Below are positions 10,873 to 62,047 of a stretch of 64,000 bases of DNA, in pieces. Origin of the DNA: a virus. The DNA lies in IMG/VR virus record IMGVR_UViG_3300044835_000040, positions 62,001 to 126,000 of that record, one strand, 5' to 3'. The number at the start of each line of letters is the position of its first letter. Position 1 is the first letter of the stretch. Both the position numbers and the translations under genes were made by a program. The notes beneath the pieces are model-generated. The model worked only from the letters and a program-made list of their open reading frames with translations. It ran no database searches and was not told the DNA's origin.

Positions 10873-12855
10873 ATGCCGGGCGGGGGCGAACGGCTGAAAG
10901 ACGCGGTGCGTAGCACGCTGGAGCGGTCCGCGAGGTATCACGCGGAGGGCCGCAGCTTCATCGCTGACATCCTCGCGCCGGGTCCTCCGGTGCTCGCCGA
11001 GATCCATGAGAGCAACATCGAACTGGAGGAGGGCGAGAACCTGCATCTGTCGCAGGCGGTCCGCCAGTACGACGCGGACTATGGCCTGGAAGCCGACGAC
11101 AACCTGCTCGTGGTCCACGTCGGTGAAGGCAACTTCCATGCGGATGCGGTGCTGAGCGACAACGATGTGGCGCCCCATGCCAAAGTCGGCGAAGCGGGCG
11201 GTGGCGCGACCGGCCCAGCGGGAGCGACGGGCGCGGCGGGCGCGACGGGCGCCGCAGGTGCGCCAGGCGGCGTAGGGGCCACCGGTCCGCAGGGTACGGA
11301 AGGGGCACAAGGCGCGACAGGTCCGGCTGGTGGAGCTGGCGCCACGGGAGTCAAAGGGGCGACAGGCACCGCGGGCGCGGCGGGTGCTACGGGTGCTCAG
11401 GGGGCATCGGGCGCGGCTGGTGGCGCCGGACCAACGGGGCCAACGGGTGCGACAGGACCAGTAGGCGCCACGGGTGCGGGGACGACAGGCGCGACGGGCT
11501 CGGCAGGCCCTGCTGGCGCCACGGGGCCAGCAGGAGCGACGGGAGCTGGCACGACGGGCGCGACTGGGCCGACGGGCGCCACCGGCACGGTCGGTGCGAC
11601 TGGTGCTGGCGCGGCGGGTGCCACTGGGTCGACCGGCGCGACAGGTGTCGGTGCGACTGGTGCCACGGGTCCGTCGGGGATCACGGAAGCCCTCCCGGCG
11701 GCGGGTGTGCCGTCGCTACAGCCGCAGCTACTCGCGTCGACGGTGCTGGGCGAGAACTTCCCTCTGTACCGGACGAACGGGAACACCGAACTGGCTCTGA
11801 CGAGCGGGCAGGCGGTGATCGTGCCGGGGCCGACGATTCAGGCAGGGAAGACCGTCTCCTCGGTCTCGCTGGTGCAGGCCGTGAAACCGACGACGCAAAC
11901 ACACGCGTGGGTCGCGATCCTGACGTTGACCGGCGAAGTGCTGGCAGTAAGCGCGGATGCAACCTCGACTCCGTGGACATCGACAGCGAACGCGGAGGCC
12001 AAGGTCGCGCTCGCTGCGAGCTGGACGCCTTCGGCCGAGACGGCGACGCTGGTGGCGATCATGTCGGCGGCGACGACCCCGCCGAAACTGCTCGGCGTCT
12101 CAGCGGCTGGCGTCGCCGCCGCGGCGTTCTCGCCGATCTACGCGGGGAACAGCCCGACGACCGGCTCGACGACGCCGCCTGCGGTCGGCGCGTCGATCGT
12201 GCTGCCGACAGCGGCGGGAACGGTCGTGCCGTATATCCGATTCAACTCGGAAGTCTTGGCTGCCCCGACCTACCGCGGTGAAGCGCTCGCGAACGCGACG
12301 GCAGTCACGTCGCTGACGGCTCCGACGCCGTTCGCGGGCACGACATCGACGGACATGCTGGTGATGGACGTGACGATCGAAGTGACGAGCGGGTCGCCGC
12401 CGACGGTGACCACGCCGTCGGGCTGGACCCTCGTCAATACGCGGCAGGCCGTCGGGGTGTTCGCTCGCTACACGTTCTGGAGGATCTACGAAGGCGCTGC
12501 GATGCCGAAAGTCGAAGCGAGCGCGTCCTGCGAAATCACGATCCGGCTGCACTCGATCGCGGGCGCCAAAACGGTCAACGCGCACAAAGGCTACGAAGAA
12601 CTTACGCCTACGTCGAGCGTCGTCACGGTCCCGTCGATCACCACGACCGTCGAAAACACACTGCTGCTGATGATGGTCGGCAATAACTTCGGCTTCTCGT
12701 GGACGACCCCGGCGGGTTGGGCTTCGCAGAACACGTCAGCGGAGATGCACCTGTTCTCGAAGACGCAGGCGACGGCGGGCGCGGTCGGCACCACGGCGGT
12801 CAAAGAGGCTGCGACCGCGCAGGTGGCTGCCGCGATCATGGCCGTCGCTCCGTGA
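10873..12855 (+). CDS. Collagen-like tail fibre / baseplate appendage protein
   Basis: 660 residues. Residues 1-108 are a non-repetitive anchor. Residues about 109-271 are Gly-X-Y triplets dominated by Gly-Ala-Thr and Gly-Pro-X ([14 protein letters not shown]), which form collagen triple helices in phage fibres. The C-terminal 380 residues are beta-rich, with a domain that starts near [13 protein letters not shown] and includes [10 protein letters not shown], probably the distal receptor-binding part. The ATG directly follows the upstream stop. It is inserted, with the next two genes, into an otherwise XkdQ-to-XkdS baseplate order. Thr-rich triplets next to a glycosyltransferase gene suggest glycosylation (inference). 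Confidence 0.75.
11199..11685 (+). repeat. Collagen-like Gly-X-Y coding repeat
   Basis: About 54 codons triplets of the form GGN-GCN-ACN and variants, read as Gly-Ala-Thr and Gly-Pro-X. The DNA is a degenerate 9-bp tandem repeat. Its antisense strand yields long Pro/Ala-rich open frames that are artefacts. Confidence 0.85.
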
Positions 12856-32475: not shown

Positions 32476-32537
32476 CGGTGGCGCCGCCGGGGGCGGCTGC
32501 TACTGTCTCGCGCTGCAACCGATCGCTGGGAGGTGTG

Positions 32538-33800: not shown

Positions 33801-33871
33801 GCGACCGTCTGTCGCACGCGACTTGACGCGTTCGATAGAATGTTAGTGCAACCGATTCTTGTGGAGGTGCG
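33801..33871 (+). promoter_or_regulatory. Operator-like site and shared leader before the 33873 gene
   Basis: GCGACCGTCTGTCGC at 33801-33815 matches 12 of 15 positions of the operator palindrome found in three promoters of this phage. TTGACG lies at 33823-33828 and TAGAAT at 33836-33841, but their spacing does not fit a normal sigma70 pair. GCAACC (33848-33853) follows the TAGAAT by six bases, as in the operator promoters. Positions 33847-33871 are the best match to the antisense stretch of the candidate small RNA at 36258-36360. Confidence 0.5.
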
Positions 33872-33872
33872 A

Positions 33873-34120: not shown

Positions 34121-34166
34121 TACCATCTGTCGCGGCGAAGGGGCAACCGATTCGAGGGAGGTGCGT
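34121..34166 (+). promoter_or_regulatory. Shared-type leader before the regulator gene
   Basis: TACCAT (34121-34126) could be a weak -10 box; GGCAACCGATTCGAGGGAGG (34142-34161) is a copy of the conserved leader, and the ribosome site ends six bases before the ATG at 34167. No good -35 is visible. Confidence 0.4.
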
Positions 34167-35078: not shown

Positions 35079-35779
35079 TGTACGGCGACGCCGCGTACCG
35101 GCAGCACTTCCACGCGCCGTCGGGCGGGGTCGATAGCAAGGGCTACCCGGAGGCGTGGGGATGGGTCAAGGACGAGGTGCGCGAGTTTGTCGGGCATCGC
35201 TGCATCCGCTGTGGGCATCCGTACCGCGTCGGGCAGGAGTCCTTCTGGTCGGAGCCTGCGGCCGAGGCGTCGGTGCGCGAGGCGGCCGGGCTGGCGCTGT
35301 TCGACTCGGAGCCGACGGACGAGCCGCGCGTGAAGCGCGAGCGCCCGGTCCACTGGTCGCCGTGCGATGAGCACTGCCGCCACGGTGGCCTGATTCGCCG
35401 CGACATGGGCGAGATGGGGCCTGACGACGAGGTGCTGTGGGATGTACACGACATCGGTGCGGCGACGCTCGATCTAGCGCCGGGGATGGGGCCGGTGCAG
35501 GCGGCGTGGCGGATCCTGACCGTGCATCACGCCAACGGCAACAAGCTCGATCTGCGCTGGTGGAACCTGTTAGCTTTGTGCCAACGGGATCACCTATCGG
35601 TACAGAGCCGGGTCGTGATGGACCGCCCGTTCATCCTTGAGCACTCCGGCTGGTTCAAGCCCTACGCAGCAGGTTTCTATGCCTCCAAGTATCTCGGTGA
35701 AGACATCACGCGCGAGCAGGCCGAAGGGCGGCTCGACGAACTGCTCGCCTTCGAGCGGCGCGACCGGGCCACGGCGTAG
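35078..35779 (+). CDS. HNH-like zinc nuclease domain protein
   Basis: 233 residues. An N-terminal CIRCGHPY and PCDEHCRHGG give metal-binding cysteines; residues about 145-185, ILTVHHANGNKLDLRWWNLL and ALCQRDHLSVQ, have the HH, N and H of an HNH motif. The C-terminus (WFKPYAAGFYASKYLG) is typical of this phage protein group. It may be a DNA nuclease used by the phage rather than a homing enzyme. A 1-base overlap joins it to the gene before. Confidence 0.65.
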   Translation: MYGDAAYRQHFHAPSGGVDSKGYPEAWGWVKDEVREFVGHRCIRCGHPYRVGQESFWSEPAAEASVREAAGLALFDSEPTDEPRVKRERPVHWSPCDEHCRHGGLIRRDMGEMGPDDEVLWDVHDIGAATLDLAPGMGPVQAAWRILTVHHANGNKLDLRWWNLLALCQRDHLSVQSRVVMDRPFILEHSGWFKPYAAGFYASKYLGEDITREQAEGRLDELLAFERRDRATA

Positions 35780-35882
35780 CTGCGACTGCGCCGATCTCAC
35801 CGGTTGCAAGGTCTGTCGCCACCGAGAGAAGCAACGTCGTCGCTACCACGGGCTACCGCCGCTCGCTCCACTGCCCAACGCG

Positions 35883-36236
35883 ATGCGGATCCGGGAGTCG
35901 CGGCTGGTGCTGCCGGATGACCCAATCACACGCGCCTACATCGCGGGGTTGTTCGACGGCGAGGGCAGTATCACTCGCCAGCGCTGGCCGGTCCTCCAGG
36001 TCGGGATGACTGACGAGGGCGTCATCCGCTGGCTGGCAGCGATGGGCGGCAGCCTGCGCGTCGAGCAACCGCCCGGCAACCGGCAGCTGCTCTACCGCTG
36101 GCGTGTGCTCGCGCGTCGCGAGGTCATCGAGATGCTGGAGATGATGCTGCCGTACTTGCGCGTGAAGCGGAAAGCGGCGATAGCTGTGCTGGAGGAGCTG
36201 CTGGCGCTGGAGCGTATTTCGGTTGCGGAGACGTAG
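35883..36236 (+). CDS. LAGLIDADG-type homing endonuclease
   Basis: 117 residues from the ATG at 35883. The motif AYIAGLFDGEGSI is at residues 18-30, followed by a single LAGLIDADG domain (GMTDEGVIRWLAAMGG, LPYLRVKRKAAIAVLEELL). Upstream in the same frame, after the previous stop, is CDCADLTGCKVCRHREKQRR, a zinc-knuckle-like stretch with no start codon of its own, so a longer form or a decayed 5' end is possible. It is inserted just before the candidate small RNA. Confidence 0.7.
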   Translation: MRIRESRLVLPDDPITRAYIAGLFDGEGSITRQRWPVLQVGMTDEGVIRWLAAMGGSLRVEQPPGNRQLLYRWRVLARREVIEMLEMMLPYLRVKRKAAIAVLEELLALERISVAET

Positions 36237-36251
36237 GTCGCCCGCTATAGT
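36223..36251 (+). promoter_or_regulatory. Promoter of the candidate small RNA
   Basis: TTGCGG (36223-36228), a 17-base spacer and TATAGT (36246-36251). The TATAGT is identical to that of the 50542 operator promoter. GGTCGC half-sites flank it at 36236-36241 and 36252-36257, so the same repressor could act here. The -35 box overlaps the end of the endonuclease gene. Expected start near 36258. Confidence 0.5.
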
Positions 36252-36257
36252 GGTCGC

Positions 36258-36360
36258 ATCGATCCCGATGGATCGGTGTAGCGGTCGGCCTAACGGCCAC
36301 CGCCGCACCTCCAGAAGAATCGGTTGCAGGGAGCGCCGCCGCAAGGCGGCGTTTCCATTT
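36258..36360 (+). ncRNA. Candidate trans-acting antisense small RNA against the shared leader
   Basis: About 103 nt. Hairpin 1: CGATCC-CGAT-GGATCG (36260-36275). Hairpin 2: GCGGT/ACCGC plus GGCC/GGCC with a TAAC loop (36281-36303). A single-stranded stretch 36304-36333 follows, then a terminator hairpin. Positions 36304-36328 are the reverse complement, with one mismatch in 25, of the leader and ribosome site at 33847-33871; CGCACCTCC (36304-36312) alone is complementary to GGAGGTGCG, present before eight genes. It could block translation of several phage mRNAs or titrate them; CACCTCC also mimics the 16S anti-Shine-Dalgarno. Alternative: the GGTTGC element is only a protein operator. Confidence 0.5.
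36334..36354 (+). terminator. Intrinsic terminator with GNRA loop
   Basis: CGCCGCC (36334-36340), loop GCAA, GGCGGCG (36345-36351), then TTT and a further TTT after CCA. Seven perfect GC pairs and a GNRA tetraloop. It ends the candidate small RNA and insulates the 36418 gene. Confidence 0.7.
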
Positions 36361-36417
36361 CTACGACCGGTCCGGTGGGTACGCTCGGCAGCGTCAACAT
36401 TCGATCGGAGGTGCGAG

Positions 36418-36744
36418 ATGGCGCAGGGGAAAGAGCCGACGACGCGTGAGCCGTCGCCCTACCACGTGTACGAGGTGGTCGACCGGCCGCGGCAGATGGT
36501 TGCGGAGGAGACGGGCGAGGAGAGCATCGAGGGCGGCCCCGAGACGCTGAAGCTGGTCGAAACGCTGCAGGCGACGAGTAGCGCTGATGCGGACCGGCAG
36601 TGGCGCTCGATACTGGAGGACGAGTTCCGTGTCGGAGGCCGCAGTGGCGAAGTCGAGTACCGCTGCATCGCGGCCCGCTTCGCTGAGCCGCTGTACTACG
36701 CGGGCGCACAGCAGAAGATGGTTGTGACTGGTGGCACCCGGTAA
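36418..36744 (+). CDS. Hypothetical protein
   Basis: 108 residues; the ATG at 36418 is set by the shared CGGAGGTGCGAG site. An in-frame ATG at 36268 would run through the small-RNA region and give an Arg-rich tail without a ribosome site, so I reject it. Acidic, with a beta-rich second half (GEVEYRCIAARFAEPLYYAG). Function unknown. Confidence 0.55.
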   Translation: MAQGKEPTTREPSPYHVYEVVDRPRQMVAEETGEESIEGGPETLKLVETLQATSSADADRQWRSILEDEFRVGGRSGEVEYRCIAARFAEPLYYAGAQQKMVVTGGTR

Positions 36745-36998: not shown

Positions 36999-39041
36999 GT
37001 GACGGCAAGGCCCTCGATCGGTTCCCTCGAAGACCTGCCTGACGTTCACGGGCCGTTCGGTGATGGGCAGGTGCCGGTCTGGTCGCAGTCGCAGGGAGCG
37101 TTCGTTCCGGGCGCTGGCGGCGGTGGCGGTGGCGGCACGGGCGCGACTGGGCCGCAGGGAGCGACTGGTCCCGCAGGCAGCCAGGGCGCAACGGGCGCTG
37201 CTGGCGCAACGGGCGCGGGCGGTGTGCAGGGAGCGACGGGTCCCGTCGGCGGTCTCGGCGCGACCGGCGTCAACGGCGCGACCGGAGCTGGCGGCGCGCA
37301 GGGAGCGACCGGTCCCGCGGGTGGACTGGGCGCGACGGGCGTGGCTGGCGCTACTGGTGCTGGAGGCCCGGCGGGAGCGACAGGTTCGGTCGGTGCGGCT
37401 GGCGCGACAGGTGTCAAAGGAGCCACGGGCACAGAAGGTCCGGCTGGCGCTACGGGCGCCGCTGGGACCGTCGGAGCGACCGGTGCTGGCACCGTGGGCG
37501 CGACGGGAGCGAAAGGCACGACGGGTTCAGAAGGGCCTGCTGGGGCGACCGGCGCAGCGGGCACCGTGGGCGCTACCGGCGCGGGCACCGTGGGGGCTAC
37601 CGGCGCGAAAGGTGCAACGGGCACCGAAGGCGCTGTCGGTGCGACCGGCGCGGGTACGGTCGGCGCGACCGGGGCCAAAGGAGCCACGGGCAGCGAAGGG
37701 CCAGCTGGCGCGACTGGCGTCAAAGGCACGACCGGCTCGGAAGGCCCCGCGGGCGCGACTGGAGCTGCAGGCACCGTCGGGGCGACTGGCGTCAAAGGAG
37801 CTACGGGCACCGAAGGTGCCGCCGGGGCCACTGGAGCGAAAGGCACCACGGGCTCGGAAGGTCCTGCTGGTGCCACGGGAGCTGCCGGTACGGTCGGCGC
37901 GACTGGCGCGGGCGGCGCGGCGGGCGCCACGGGAGCGAAAGGAGCGACTGGGACCGAAGGTGCCGCTGGCGCGACCGGTGCGGCGGGCACGGTCGGTGCC
38001 ACTGGCGCCAAAGGCACGACGGGGTCGGAAGGCCCTGCGGGTGCGACGGGCACGACCGGTGCGGCGGGCGCCACTGGCGTGAAAGGAGCGACCGGATCAG
38101 AAGGTCCGGCTGGCGCCACGGGGACGACCGGTGCTGCTGGCGCGACGGGCGCCAAAGGAGCGACGGGCACCGAAGGTCCGCAGGGCGCGACGGGTCCGGC
38201 GGGGGCTGCTGGCGCGACTGGAGTGACGGGCGCGACGGGCAGCGGCGGCCCGCAGGGAGCTACCGGGCCGGAACCGAGCGGCGCGCTGCTGAAAACGAAC
38301 AACCTCTCCGATGTCGCGAACACGGGCACCTCCCGCGCGAATCTGAAGGACTCGACTCTCGCTCCGGCAATCGCAGTGTCGACGGCGAACATCGCGTCGC
38401 TCGAAGGCACGCCGGAAGTCGACGGCTACAAACTCGCTGAAGAAGACACGGTGCTGCTGACGGGGCAGACCGAAGCGAAGAACAACGGGCCGTGGGTCGT
38501 GCCCGTGGGCGCGGGTGCGTGGACCAGACCGGCTGACTACGCGACGGGGATGGAAGTCCGGGCGCGCCTAATCATGGTCGTGAAAGGCACGGTGTACGCC
38601 AACTCCGTGTGGATGCTCTCGACGCGGACGTTGATCACGGTCGGCACGACCGCATCGACCTGGGTCCGCTCGAATAAGACCCGCCACCGCACCGGTCACG
38701 CGTGGGTCACGCGCGGCACTGAACCGTGGGCGATCGAAACGATCCAGGGTCCGCCCGTCCGCCCGGCGACCGCGGAGACGCAGTACATCGCTGGCGTCGA
38801 CTGGACGAAAGTCACGTCGGGCACCTCCCCGAAAGTCAGCTTCAAGATCCAGGTCAACGGCGCGGACGTGGGGCTCGGCACGACCGCTTCGCCGCTGCTG
38901 ATGGAAGCCGCTGACGGCAACTCGATGCTGACGACGCCAGTCGAACTGAAAGCCGGGGACGACATCACGCTCGTGATCCTCGCGATCTCCACCGCGCCGC
39001 TCGGCGGGCGCATCGGCCTGCACATCGACCACGTTGCATGA
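36999..39041 (+). CDS. Second collagen-like tail fibre
   Basis: 680 residues, GTG start behind CCAGAGG. Residues 1-45 are a short anchor ending in a Gly run; residues about 46-425 are Gly-X-Y triplets ([26 protein letters not shown]), one of the longest collagen-like stretches possible in a fibre. After PEPSG comes [20 protein letters not shown], a classic fibre element, then [19 protein letters not shown] and a beta-rich tip. It sits 18 kb from the tail operon among early-type genes, so it may be a decoration or exchangeable receptor-binding fibre acquired separately. Confidence 0.75.
37135..38275 (+). repeat. Collagen-like coding repeat, second copy
   Basis: About 127 Gly-X-Y triplets with higher-order units of the form [13 protein letters not shown] and [16 protein letters not shown]. 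Codon choice varies between units, which limits exact DNA repeats. The antisense frames are Pro/Val-rich artefacts. Confidence 0.85.
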
Positions 39042-39769: not shown

Positions 39770-39802
39770 GGCGGCGCAACCGATCGAAATGGAAGGTGCG
39801 AG

Positions 39803-49031: not shown

Positions 49032-49067
49032 ACTGTCTGTACAGCAACCGATTTACGGAGGTGCGAG
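49029..49067 (+). promoter_or_regulatory. Leader with TAGACT, CTGTACAG palindrome and shared ribosome site
   Basis: TAGACT (49029-49034) as -10 candidate, TGTCTGTACAG (49034-49044), GCAACCGATTTACGGAGG and TGCGAG before the ATG at 49068. No clear -35. It combines both repeated motif classes of the phage. Confidence 0.5.
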
Positions 49068-50545: not shown

Positions 50546-50570
50546 CGCTGCGACCGATGGTCGCTATAGT
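50542..50570 (+). promoter_or_regulatory. Operator-controlled sigma70 promoter 2
   Basis: TTGACG (50542-50547), 17 bases, TATAGT (50565-50570). The last 15 spacer bases are the perfect palindrome GCGACC-GAT-GGTCGC (50550-50564). GCAACC (50579-50584) follows eight bases after -10. It drives a run of overlapping genes to about 56.9 kb. Confidence 0.8.
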
Positions 50571-50603
50571 CTGCGGCTGCAACCGAGAGTGGAGGTGCGA
50601 GAG

Positions 50604-60914: not shown

Positions 60915-60943
60915 TTGCACGCGCGACCGATGGTCGCTATGCT
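60915..60943 (+). promoter_or_regulatory. Operator-controlled sigma70 promoter 3
   Basis: TTGCAC (60915-60920), 17 bases, TATGCT (60938-60943), with the perfect palindrome GCGACC-GAT-GGTCGC at 60923-60937. GCAACC (60950-60955) follows six bases after -10, then GGAAGGTGCGAG before the ATG at 60976. Drives the operon to the end of the window. Confidence 0.75.
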
Positions 60944-60975
60944 GTGTGAGCAACCGAATCGAAGGAAGGTGCGAG

Positions 60976-61727: not shown

Positions 61728-62047
61728 GCGCGTTGCCGGAGCACTACAGGGCGTCGCTGAGCGGGCTGCCGGTCCCGACGCCGGGGATCCCGCAGGAACG
61801 GTTCTGGCGGCTGACGTGCAGGTGCGGCTGGCGGACGGAAGGCGTGACCTGCAAGGACGTGGAAGATGCCTTCGAGGAGCACGCTCGCCCGACGCGCGTG
61901 GTGCAGATCGAAAAGGGCGCGCGGGCGCTGCACGAGCACGACGACGCCGAGTGGGACTTCGACGACGAGACGAAGGAGTACTTCCGGGGCGTCTACGAGG
62001 AGAAGGCCGCGGCAGTGCTGGACGCCGTGCTGGGGCCGTGCGTATGA
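61724..62047 (+). CDS. Hypothetical protein with short zinc ribbon
   Basis: 107 residues. RLTCRCGWRTEGVTCKDVED resembles the CxCGW ribbons at 52144 and 62044; the rest is acidic and helical. ATGA overlaps both sides. Confidence 0.5.
   Translation: MSALPEHYRASLSGLPVPTPGIPQERFWRLTCRCGWRTEGVTCKDVEDAFEEHARPTRVVQIEKGARALHEHDDAEWDFDDETKEYFRGVYEEKAAAVLDAVLGPCV

Follow-up and report, generated by a model that had tools for sequence, protein, structure and literature searches.

Antisense RNAs known from phages usually control one gene or one operon. The c4 RNA of phages P1/P7 and the CI RNA of satellite P4 contain short stretches that can pair with ribosome sites or leaders of phage transcripts; each comes from the transcript that also carries its target, and its control is limited to one operon. 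Trans-acting small RNAs (sRNAs) of enterobacteria that mask ribosome sites comprise a promoter, 5' hairpins, a single-stranded seed and a Rho-independent terminator, and they have multiple targets. In phage P22, sar RNA blocks translation initiation of the antirepressor, and OOP RNA of phage lambda lowers cII expression (PMC12197685). Cluster K mycobacteriophages carry a repeated, conserved Shine-Dalgarno leader, the start-associated sequence (SAS), in front of 11–19 genes; half of the SAS have an upstream inverted repeat or promoter, and four K1 phages contain one copy in opposite orientation that belongs to no gene (PMC3203893).

The DNA analyzed here, referred to as the window, comprises 64,000 nucleotides (positions 62001–126000) of a virus record of 129,070 bases (G000). 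On its plus strand, the intergenic gap 36237–36419, located between a homing-endonuclease-like gene (stop at 36236) and the start codon at 36420, contains a candidate trans-acting antisense sRNA (36256–36362), which would block the ribosome site of a regulon defined by a common leader. We assign this reading a probability of about 0.66; it is based on promoter-like sites, stems, a terminator, complementarity and conservation in one relative. The sigma70-like promoter, the two hairpins and the GCAA-capped terminator of 7 bp named in the original prediction were found again when the sequence was read, in the order promoter, two hairpins, CGCACCTCCAGAAGAATCGGTTGCA and GC-rich terminator:

36223–36251, plus strand: candidate sRNA promoter, TTGCGG (36223–36228) and TATAGT (36246–36251) with 17 bases between them, read from the sequence; without the operator of the leader promoters
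36256–36279, plus strand: 5' hairpin GCATCGATCC/GGATCGGTGT, forced local fold
36281–36303, plus strand: second hairpin GCGGTCGGCC-TAAC-GGCCACCGC, fold prediction
36304–36328, plus strand: anti-leader CGCACCTCC-AGAAGA-ATCGGTTGCA, complementary to the leader GCAACCGAT-n-GGAGGTGCG
36329–36362, plus strand: intrinsic terminator, fold prediction; GCAA-capped GC core stem of 7 bp, which lengthens to 12 pairs (36329–36356), and T-rich tail ATTTCT

Across both strands of the 129-kb contig there are only six copies of the motif TATANT, five of them at leader promoters and one at the candidate sRNA. A predicted promoter and a predicted intrinsic terminator within an intergenic gap, as expected of a stand-alone transcription unit, were present in this phage and in its relative. 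A consensus scanner listed neither phage's sRNA promoter, nor the relative's terminator, which is probably due to the terminator stem absorbing the T tract. Rfam covariance models gave no gathering-level match in the window and nothing relevant at E ≤ 5 for the element of either phage. The reverse complement of 36304–36328 is identical to the leader 33847–33871 at 24 of 25 bases, which agrees with the single mismatch reported before, and a BLAST search of the element against the whole record yielded only the element itself and this leader (E 5.6e-6).

The two-block leader GCAACCGA-n-GGAGGTGCGAGATG forms the predicted 5' UTR of 16 genes in the contig, seven of which start in the window; some copies are slightly degenerate. 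Most of them stand behind a common promoter/operator. The standard unit consists of TTGAC(n), a 17-base spacer with the operator, a TATACT-like box, 6–7 bases and GCAACCGAT-n3-9-GGAGGTGCGAG-ATG, and the operator is a near-palindrome, GCGACC-(ATC or GAT)-GGTCGC. Because of this promoter spacing, GCAACC lies at the 5' end of the mRNA, and GCAACC...GGAGGTGCG therefore makes up nearly the whole 5' UTR. The leader-specific part is GCAACCGA; most of the shared 9-mer amounts to a strong Shine-Dalgarno sequence. The two-block leaders in the window, together with the leader of the gene directly downstream of the candidate sRNA, are as follows:

32515–32537, plus strand: two-block leader of the GTG gene 32538 (HNH domain), ddG -22.7
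33847–33872, plus strand: two-block leader of gene 33873, nearest match to the anti-leader, ddG -31.2
34143–34166, plus strand: two-block leader of gene 34167 (excisionase-like HTH), kept in the relative, ddG -25.5
36397–36419, plus strand: leader of gene 36420 with GGAGGTGCG, GCAACC block absent, ddG -9.9
39776–39802, plus strand: two-block leader in the AGGTGCG form with operator and TATGTT box, ddG -18.0
49044–49067, plus strand: two-block leader of gene 49068, ddG -23.4
50550–50603, plus strand: operator GCGACCGATGGTCGC, TATAGT box and two-block leader before ATG 50604, ddG -22.0
60923–60975, plus strand: operator, TATGCT box and two-block leader before ATG 60976, ddG -19.2

In the window, GGAGGTGCG was found nine times on the plus strand, with one copy being intragenic, so that eight gene starts remain, as had been counted before; in total there are 10 matches (shuffle mean 1.94; 0 of 100 shuffles reached 10). 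The 7-mer AGGTGCG in front of two further genes (leaders 39776 and 60950) was also found as described. The resulting figure of ten genes mixes leaders having only the Shine-Dalgarno part with full leaders, and the 16 two-block leaders of the contig are the better count. Pairing of the Shine-Dalgarno-only leaders with the sRNA is predicted to be weaker overall than that of the two-block leaders. The frame that begins at the leader-bearing start 50604 has just 18 codons; its product (VIDVCQPGFMDAG) is similar to the N-terminus of a 92-aa protein of the relative (IEVAQPGFIEAHEGG, L117:1339), and a frameshift, a sequencing error or a short peptide could account for this. Despite the excisionase-like HTH protein among the leader genes, neither a tyrosine nor a serine integrase domain was found in the contigs of the two phages, and a role in lysogeny is therefore not assumed.

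The pattern CCTCC-N3-9-GGTTGC occurs once on the plus strand of each of the two genomes, both times in the sRNA gap, and all remaining top-scoring sites are located on the antisense strand, mostly of leaders. In dinucleotide shuffles, 0.2 (this phage) and 0.13 (relative) occurrences per genome were expected, and only 18 of 20,000 shuffled gaps of the relative contained the pattern (9e-4). Chance complementarity was rejected, since there is a single anti-leader per genome at the same locus and shuffles rarely match. The duplex energy to the own leaders was -43.8 in comparison to -30.3 for shuffled RNA (z -7.7; 0 of 300 shuffles) in this phage, and -39.4 in comparison to -31.5 (z -5.0; 0 of 300) in the relative. 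When the cost of unfolding was paid, the net hybrid energies of the 16 leaders ranged from -16.5 to -31.2; in this interaction prediction, which had been proposed as a check, all of them surpassed 30 other Shine-Dalgarno start sites (mean -3.2, minimum -10.9). The computed complementarity to distant ribosome sites thus exceeds chance. The relative's leaders reached -10.5 to -27.5, compared to random segments with a mean of -5.5 and a minimum of -14.3; two of these leaders thus overlap with random segments, and another two are level with the random minimum. In the relative, the inner part of the anti-leader pairs less strongly, and the relative's RNA paired only moderately with the leaders of this phage (z -3.0).

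The predicted fold counts against a trans-acting sRNA to some extent, as the lowest-energy folds conceal much of the anti-leader. In the fold of lowest energy (-63.7 kcal/mol, z -6.8), part of the anti-leader is sequestered by the 5' end of the sRNA (GCAUCGAU), which resembles the leader start, and the 5' hairpin competes with the pairing of 36256–36263 to the anti-leader. The two-hairpin fold with an open anti-leader lies 3.8 kcal/mol higher. The stretch originally described as unpaired is hence open in the two-hairpin form, but partly paired in the lowest-energy fold. Opening of the anti-leader would cost about 4 kcal/mol, which is less than the gain from any leader.

By searches with terminase, HNH, capsid and portal proteins, one relative was obtained (IMGVR_UViG_3300036797_000054; G001, 122,744 bases), which is largely syntenic with this phage. 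No further relatives were found with terminase, ATPase, HNH, capsid and portal protein queries among viral contigs or with HNH and capsid queries among genome contigs, and BLAST/tblastn searches against phage records gave only distant matches to structural genes. An exact-pattern scan of viral contigs yielded no match to the anti-leader, and one leader match each in 103 contigs; these single matches were treated as chance, except for the one (L059) that is the relative itself.

The syntenic gap of the relative extends from the stop of an HNH gene (L115:12128) to the ATG at 12338, which belongs to the orthologue of gene 36420. It contains a TTGCCG-17-TATTGT promoter, hairpins, the anti-leader CGTGCCTCCAACAGTAGGTTGCC and a terminator (CGCGGACC-CTAGT-GGTCCGCG-TTTCTGTTT), and the stretch following the hairpins reads CCGTGCCTCCAACAGTAGGTTGCC. 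Between the two gaps the sequence has diverged, whereas the order of the parts is kept. The relative's CGUGCCUCC pairs with 9 of 9 positions of GGAGGUGCG, two of them via G-U, and its GGUUGCC pairs with its own leader start GGCAACC. The leader precedes 13 starts in the relative, in comparison to 16 in this contig, and is present in both orthologues of, among others, the excisionase-like HTH gene (34167), a DUF932 gene (L005:10255) and a small gene (L003:19270). Seven conserved proteins are 68–84% identical between the phages, and their four-fold sites agree at 54% (40% expected by composition); the anti-leader match is therefore not leftover identity, and the diverged copy shows that the element has been kept. 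Complementarity has persisted despite sequence divergence in this one relative, together with the hairpin architecture.

Several further observations were made in these regions. The homing-endonuclease-like gene between the HNH gene and the sRNA (window 35779–36236; PHROG 5046) is absent at this position in the relative. Its end, EELLALER, resembles the C-terminus of the relative's HNH protein (DELLALER), which suggests insertion at the 3' end of the HNH gene. Just downstream of the locus, a long collagen-like protein with GAT repeats is encoded (window 36999–39041), and a similar repeat protein occupies the same place in the relative. The relative also contains two near-identical leader units (GGGCAACCGACTGATGGAGGTAGACGATGG) about 7 kb apart (L117:8333 and L117:15475), which represent a recent duplication.

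The relative's copy bears directly on the view that the element is an inverted copy of the 33847 leader, either as a chance relic or as the leader of a minus-strand gene. The match of 24 of 25 bases, which reaches into the variable spacer, and a minus-strand ORF of 58 codons beginning at 36300 would fit this view. With neutral sites near saturation, however, a diverged copy is still present in the corresponding gap of the relative, and we regard an inverted relic or minus-strand leader as very unlikely. A minus-strand leader in particular was rejected, since the minus strand lacks an upstream -10 box and the minus-strand ORFs of the two phages are unrelated (E 0.96); elsewhere in the contig, no minus-strand gene with the leader was found. 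The trans-acting reading of the original prediction was thereby supported, as neither of the two opposing findings it had named that were checked here, i.e. a related phage keeping the hairpins without the complementarity and a minus-strand gene using the element as its leader, was observed. The identity to the 33847 leader, spacer included, rather suggests that the anti-leader originated from, or was recently refreshed by, an inverted duplication.

Alternatively, the element might act in cis as the 5' region of gene 36420: the terminator would usually stop transcription, and in read-through RNA the anti-leader would mask the ribosome site of this gene. The downstream gene is orthologous in both phages (37% identity), and in the relative its leader (L115:12316) pairs well (ddG -17.6). 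In this phage, on the other hand, none of the gene leaders computed gave a weaker predicted pairing than the downstream one (-9.9 in comparison to -16.5 to -31.2), and gene 36420 has a -10-like box and a leader of its own in both phages. Since this leader lacks GCAACC, the GGTTGC half would remain unexplained by such an attenuator. We consider the cis reading unlikely, and an attenuator acting exclusively in cis was rejected, since the downstream leader of this phage pairs worst instead of best; in the relative, it is not the poorest partner. It is slightly less likely still that the element is only a terminator or insulator behind the HNH gene, with the promoter-like sequence as a by-product and a complementarity devoid of function. 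Terminators between operons are ordinary, and the terminator with its purine tract is kept in both phages, but this would account neither for the unique anti-leader in both genomes nor for the -10/-35 pair kept ahead of the terminator.

The original prediction had also raised the possibility that GGTTGC is only an operator half-site on DNA. Read as GGTTGC/GCAACC half-sites within an element that binds a repressor, this proved to be a weak alternative and is the least probable one. The operator of the leader promoters is a different palindrome, GCGACC-NNN-GGTCGC, which is usually located in the promoter spacer, and in the relative it reads AGCAACCRAACGCTGCT. The latter contains GCAACC, which speaks for an operator and makes the distinction between DNA and RNA signals clean in this phage only. 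Position 3 of the leader block GCAACC, however, is A and never G in all 16 leaders, 36304–36328 forms no palindrome, and the Shine-Dalgarno half would be superfluous in a DNA site. Moreover, the operator is absent from the sRNA promoter, where the best matches had 5 mismatches in 15 positions (this phage) and 6 in 17 (relative), and the DNA operator was rejected on these grounds. The two phages differ in the operator but agree in the leader block GCAACC and in the anti-leader, which speaks for conservation of the leader at the level of RNA. The operators at 50550, 60923 and 39749 of the window and at L004:8240, L004:13663, L005:8359 and L117:15446 represent equivalent promoters with two sequences, as if the specificity of the regulator had shifted across the whole regulon.

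According to the trans-acting reading, a terminated sRNA of about 100–105 nt would be formed from the plus strand (36256–36362), and its unpaired segment would match the predicted 5' UTR, from the transcription start to the Shine-Dalgarno sequence, of at least 16 genes. The targets would be the phage's own mRNAs, reached in trans. First contact would most probably occur between the exposed GGUUGC of the sRNA and GCAACC at the 5' end of the mRNA, and pairing would then spread via CGCACCUCC across GGAGGUGCG and the Shine-Dalgarno sequence. Binding of the 30S subunit would thereby be blocked, and translation of the whole leader regulon would be lowered jointly. Transcription of the leader genes would be set separately by a regulator at the promoter operator; as the sRNA promoter lacks this operator, the sRNA would represent a second layer of control. 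Transcription of the element, its action in trans and repression are the parts of this best reading that we infer. Repression is the expected sign of regulation, but activation or destabilization of the mRNA may occur instead.

Like sar of P22 and OOP of lambda, the candidate would be a small, terminated phage RNA that pairs with phage mRNA. Those RNAs, however, are made opposite or near one target, whereas the candidate lies apart from its targets and addresses the leader of at least 16 genes. With c4 and CI it has in common short stretches able to pair with ribosome sites or leaders, and the Rfam family C4 gave no match to the element. The candidate would resemble trans-acting sRNAs of enterobacteria in the parts listed above and in having multiple targets. 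In comparison to their seed of 7–10 bases, up to 18 or more bases are complementary here, and the targets, unlike those of the enterobacterial sRNAs, carry one built-in leader that spans the whole 5' UTR. Because the target is part of a leader common to many genes, a single RNA could determine how strongly a scattered regulon is translated, independently of the DNA-binding regulator of the promoters.

The cluster K phages offer a partial parallel, which is suggestive and no proof. Their SAS consensus GGGATAGGAGCCC is unrelated to the leader described here, GCAACCGA-n-GGAGGTGCG, and the resemblance would be one of working principle only, namely many gene-oriented leaders together with one reversed copy within a gap that is non-coding and structured. 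In Adephagia (JF704105), the reversed SAS GGCCTCCTATCCC (L126:11783–11795) is located in the 92–93 gap within the loop of a long hairpin, with a TAGACT box and a GC-rich hairpin upstream. Late transcription starts in the 92–93 gap that holds the cluster K hairpin (PMC11373665). The conserved hairpin region covers L126:11680–11830, about 58.58–58.73 kb of the Adephagia genome, and its stem shows compensatory changes, with Adephagia, Yunkel11 and Niklas differing on both sides. The loop reads CCTCCTATCCC constantly in K1 phages with the hairpin and CCTCCTTCCCC in K5; K3 and SirPhilip lack it. Where checked, the SAS is unchanged in several K subclusters with an altered or lost anti-SAS loop, which counts against the trans-acting reading. 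It is possible, if rather doubtful, that phages build translational regulons by placing an identical 5' UTR on many genes and gating all of them by one anti-leader RNA, that such a pair can outlast changes of the operator, and that it arose at least twice, here and in K1. If true, this would explain the single reversed SAS of the K1 phages. For the cluster K SAS, whose role has been open since 2011, a testable idea follows: the lone reversed K1 copy could be an anti-leader RNA.
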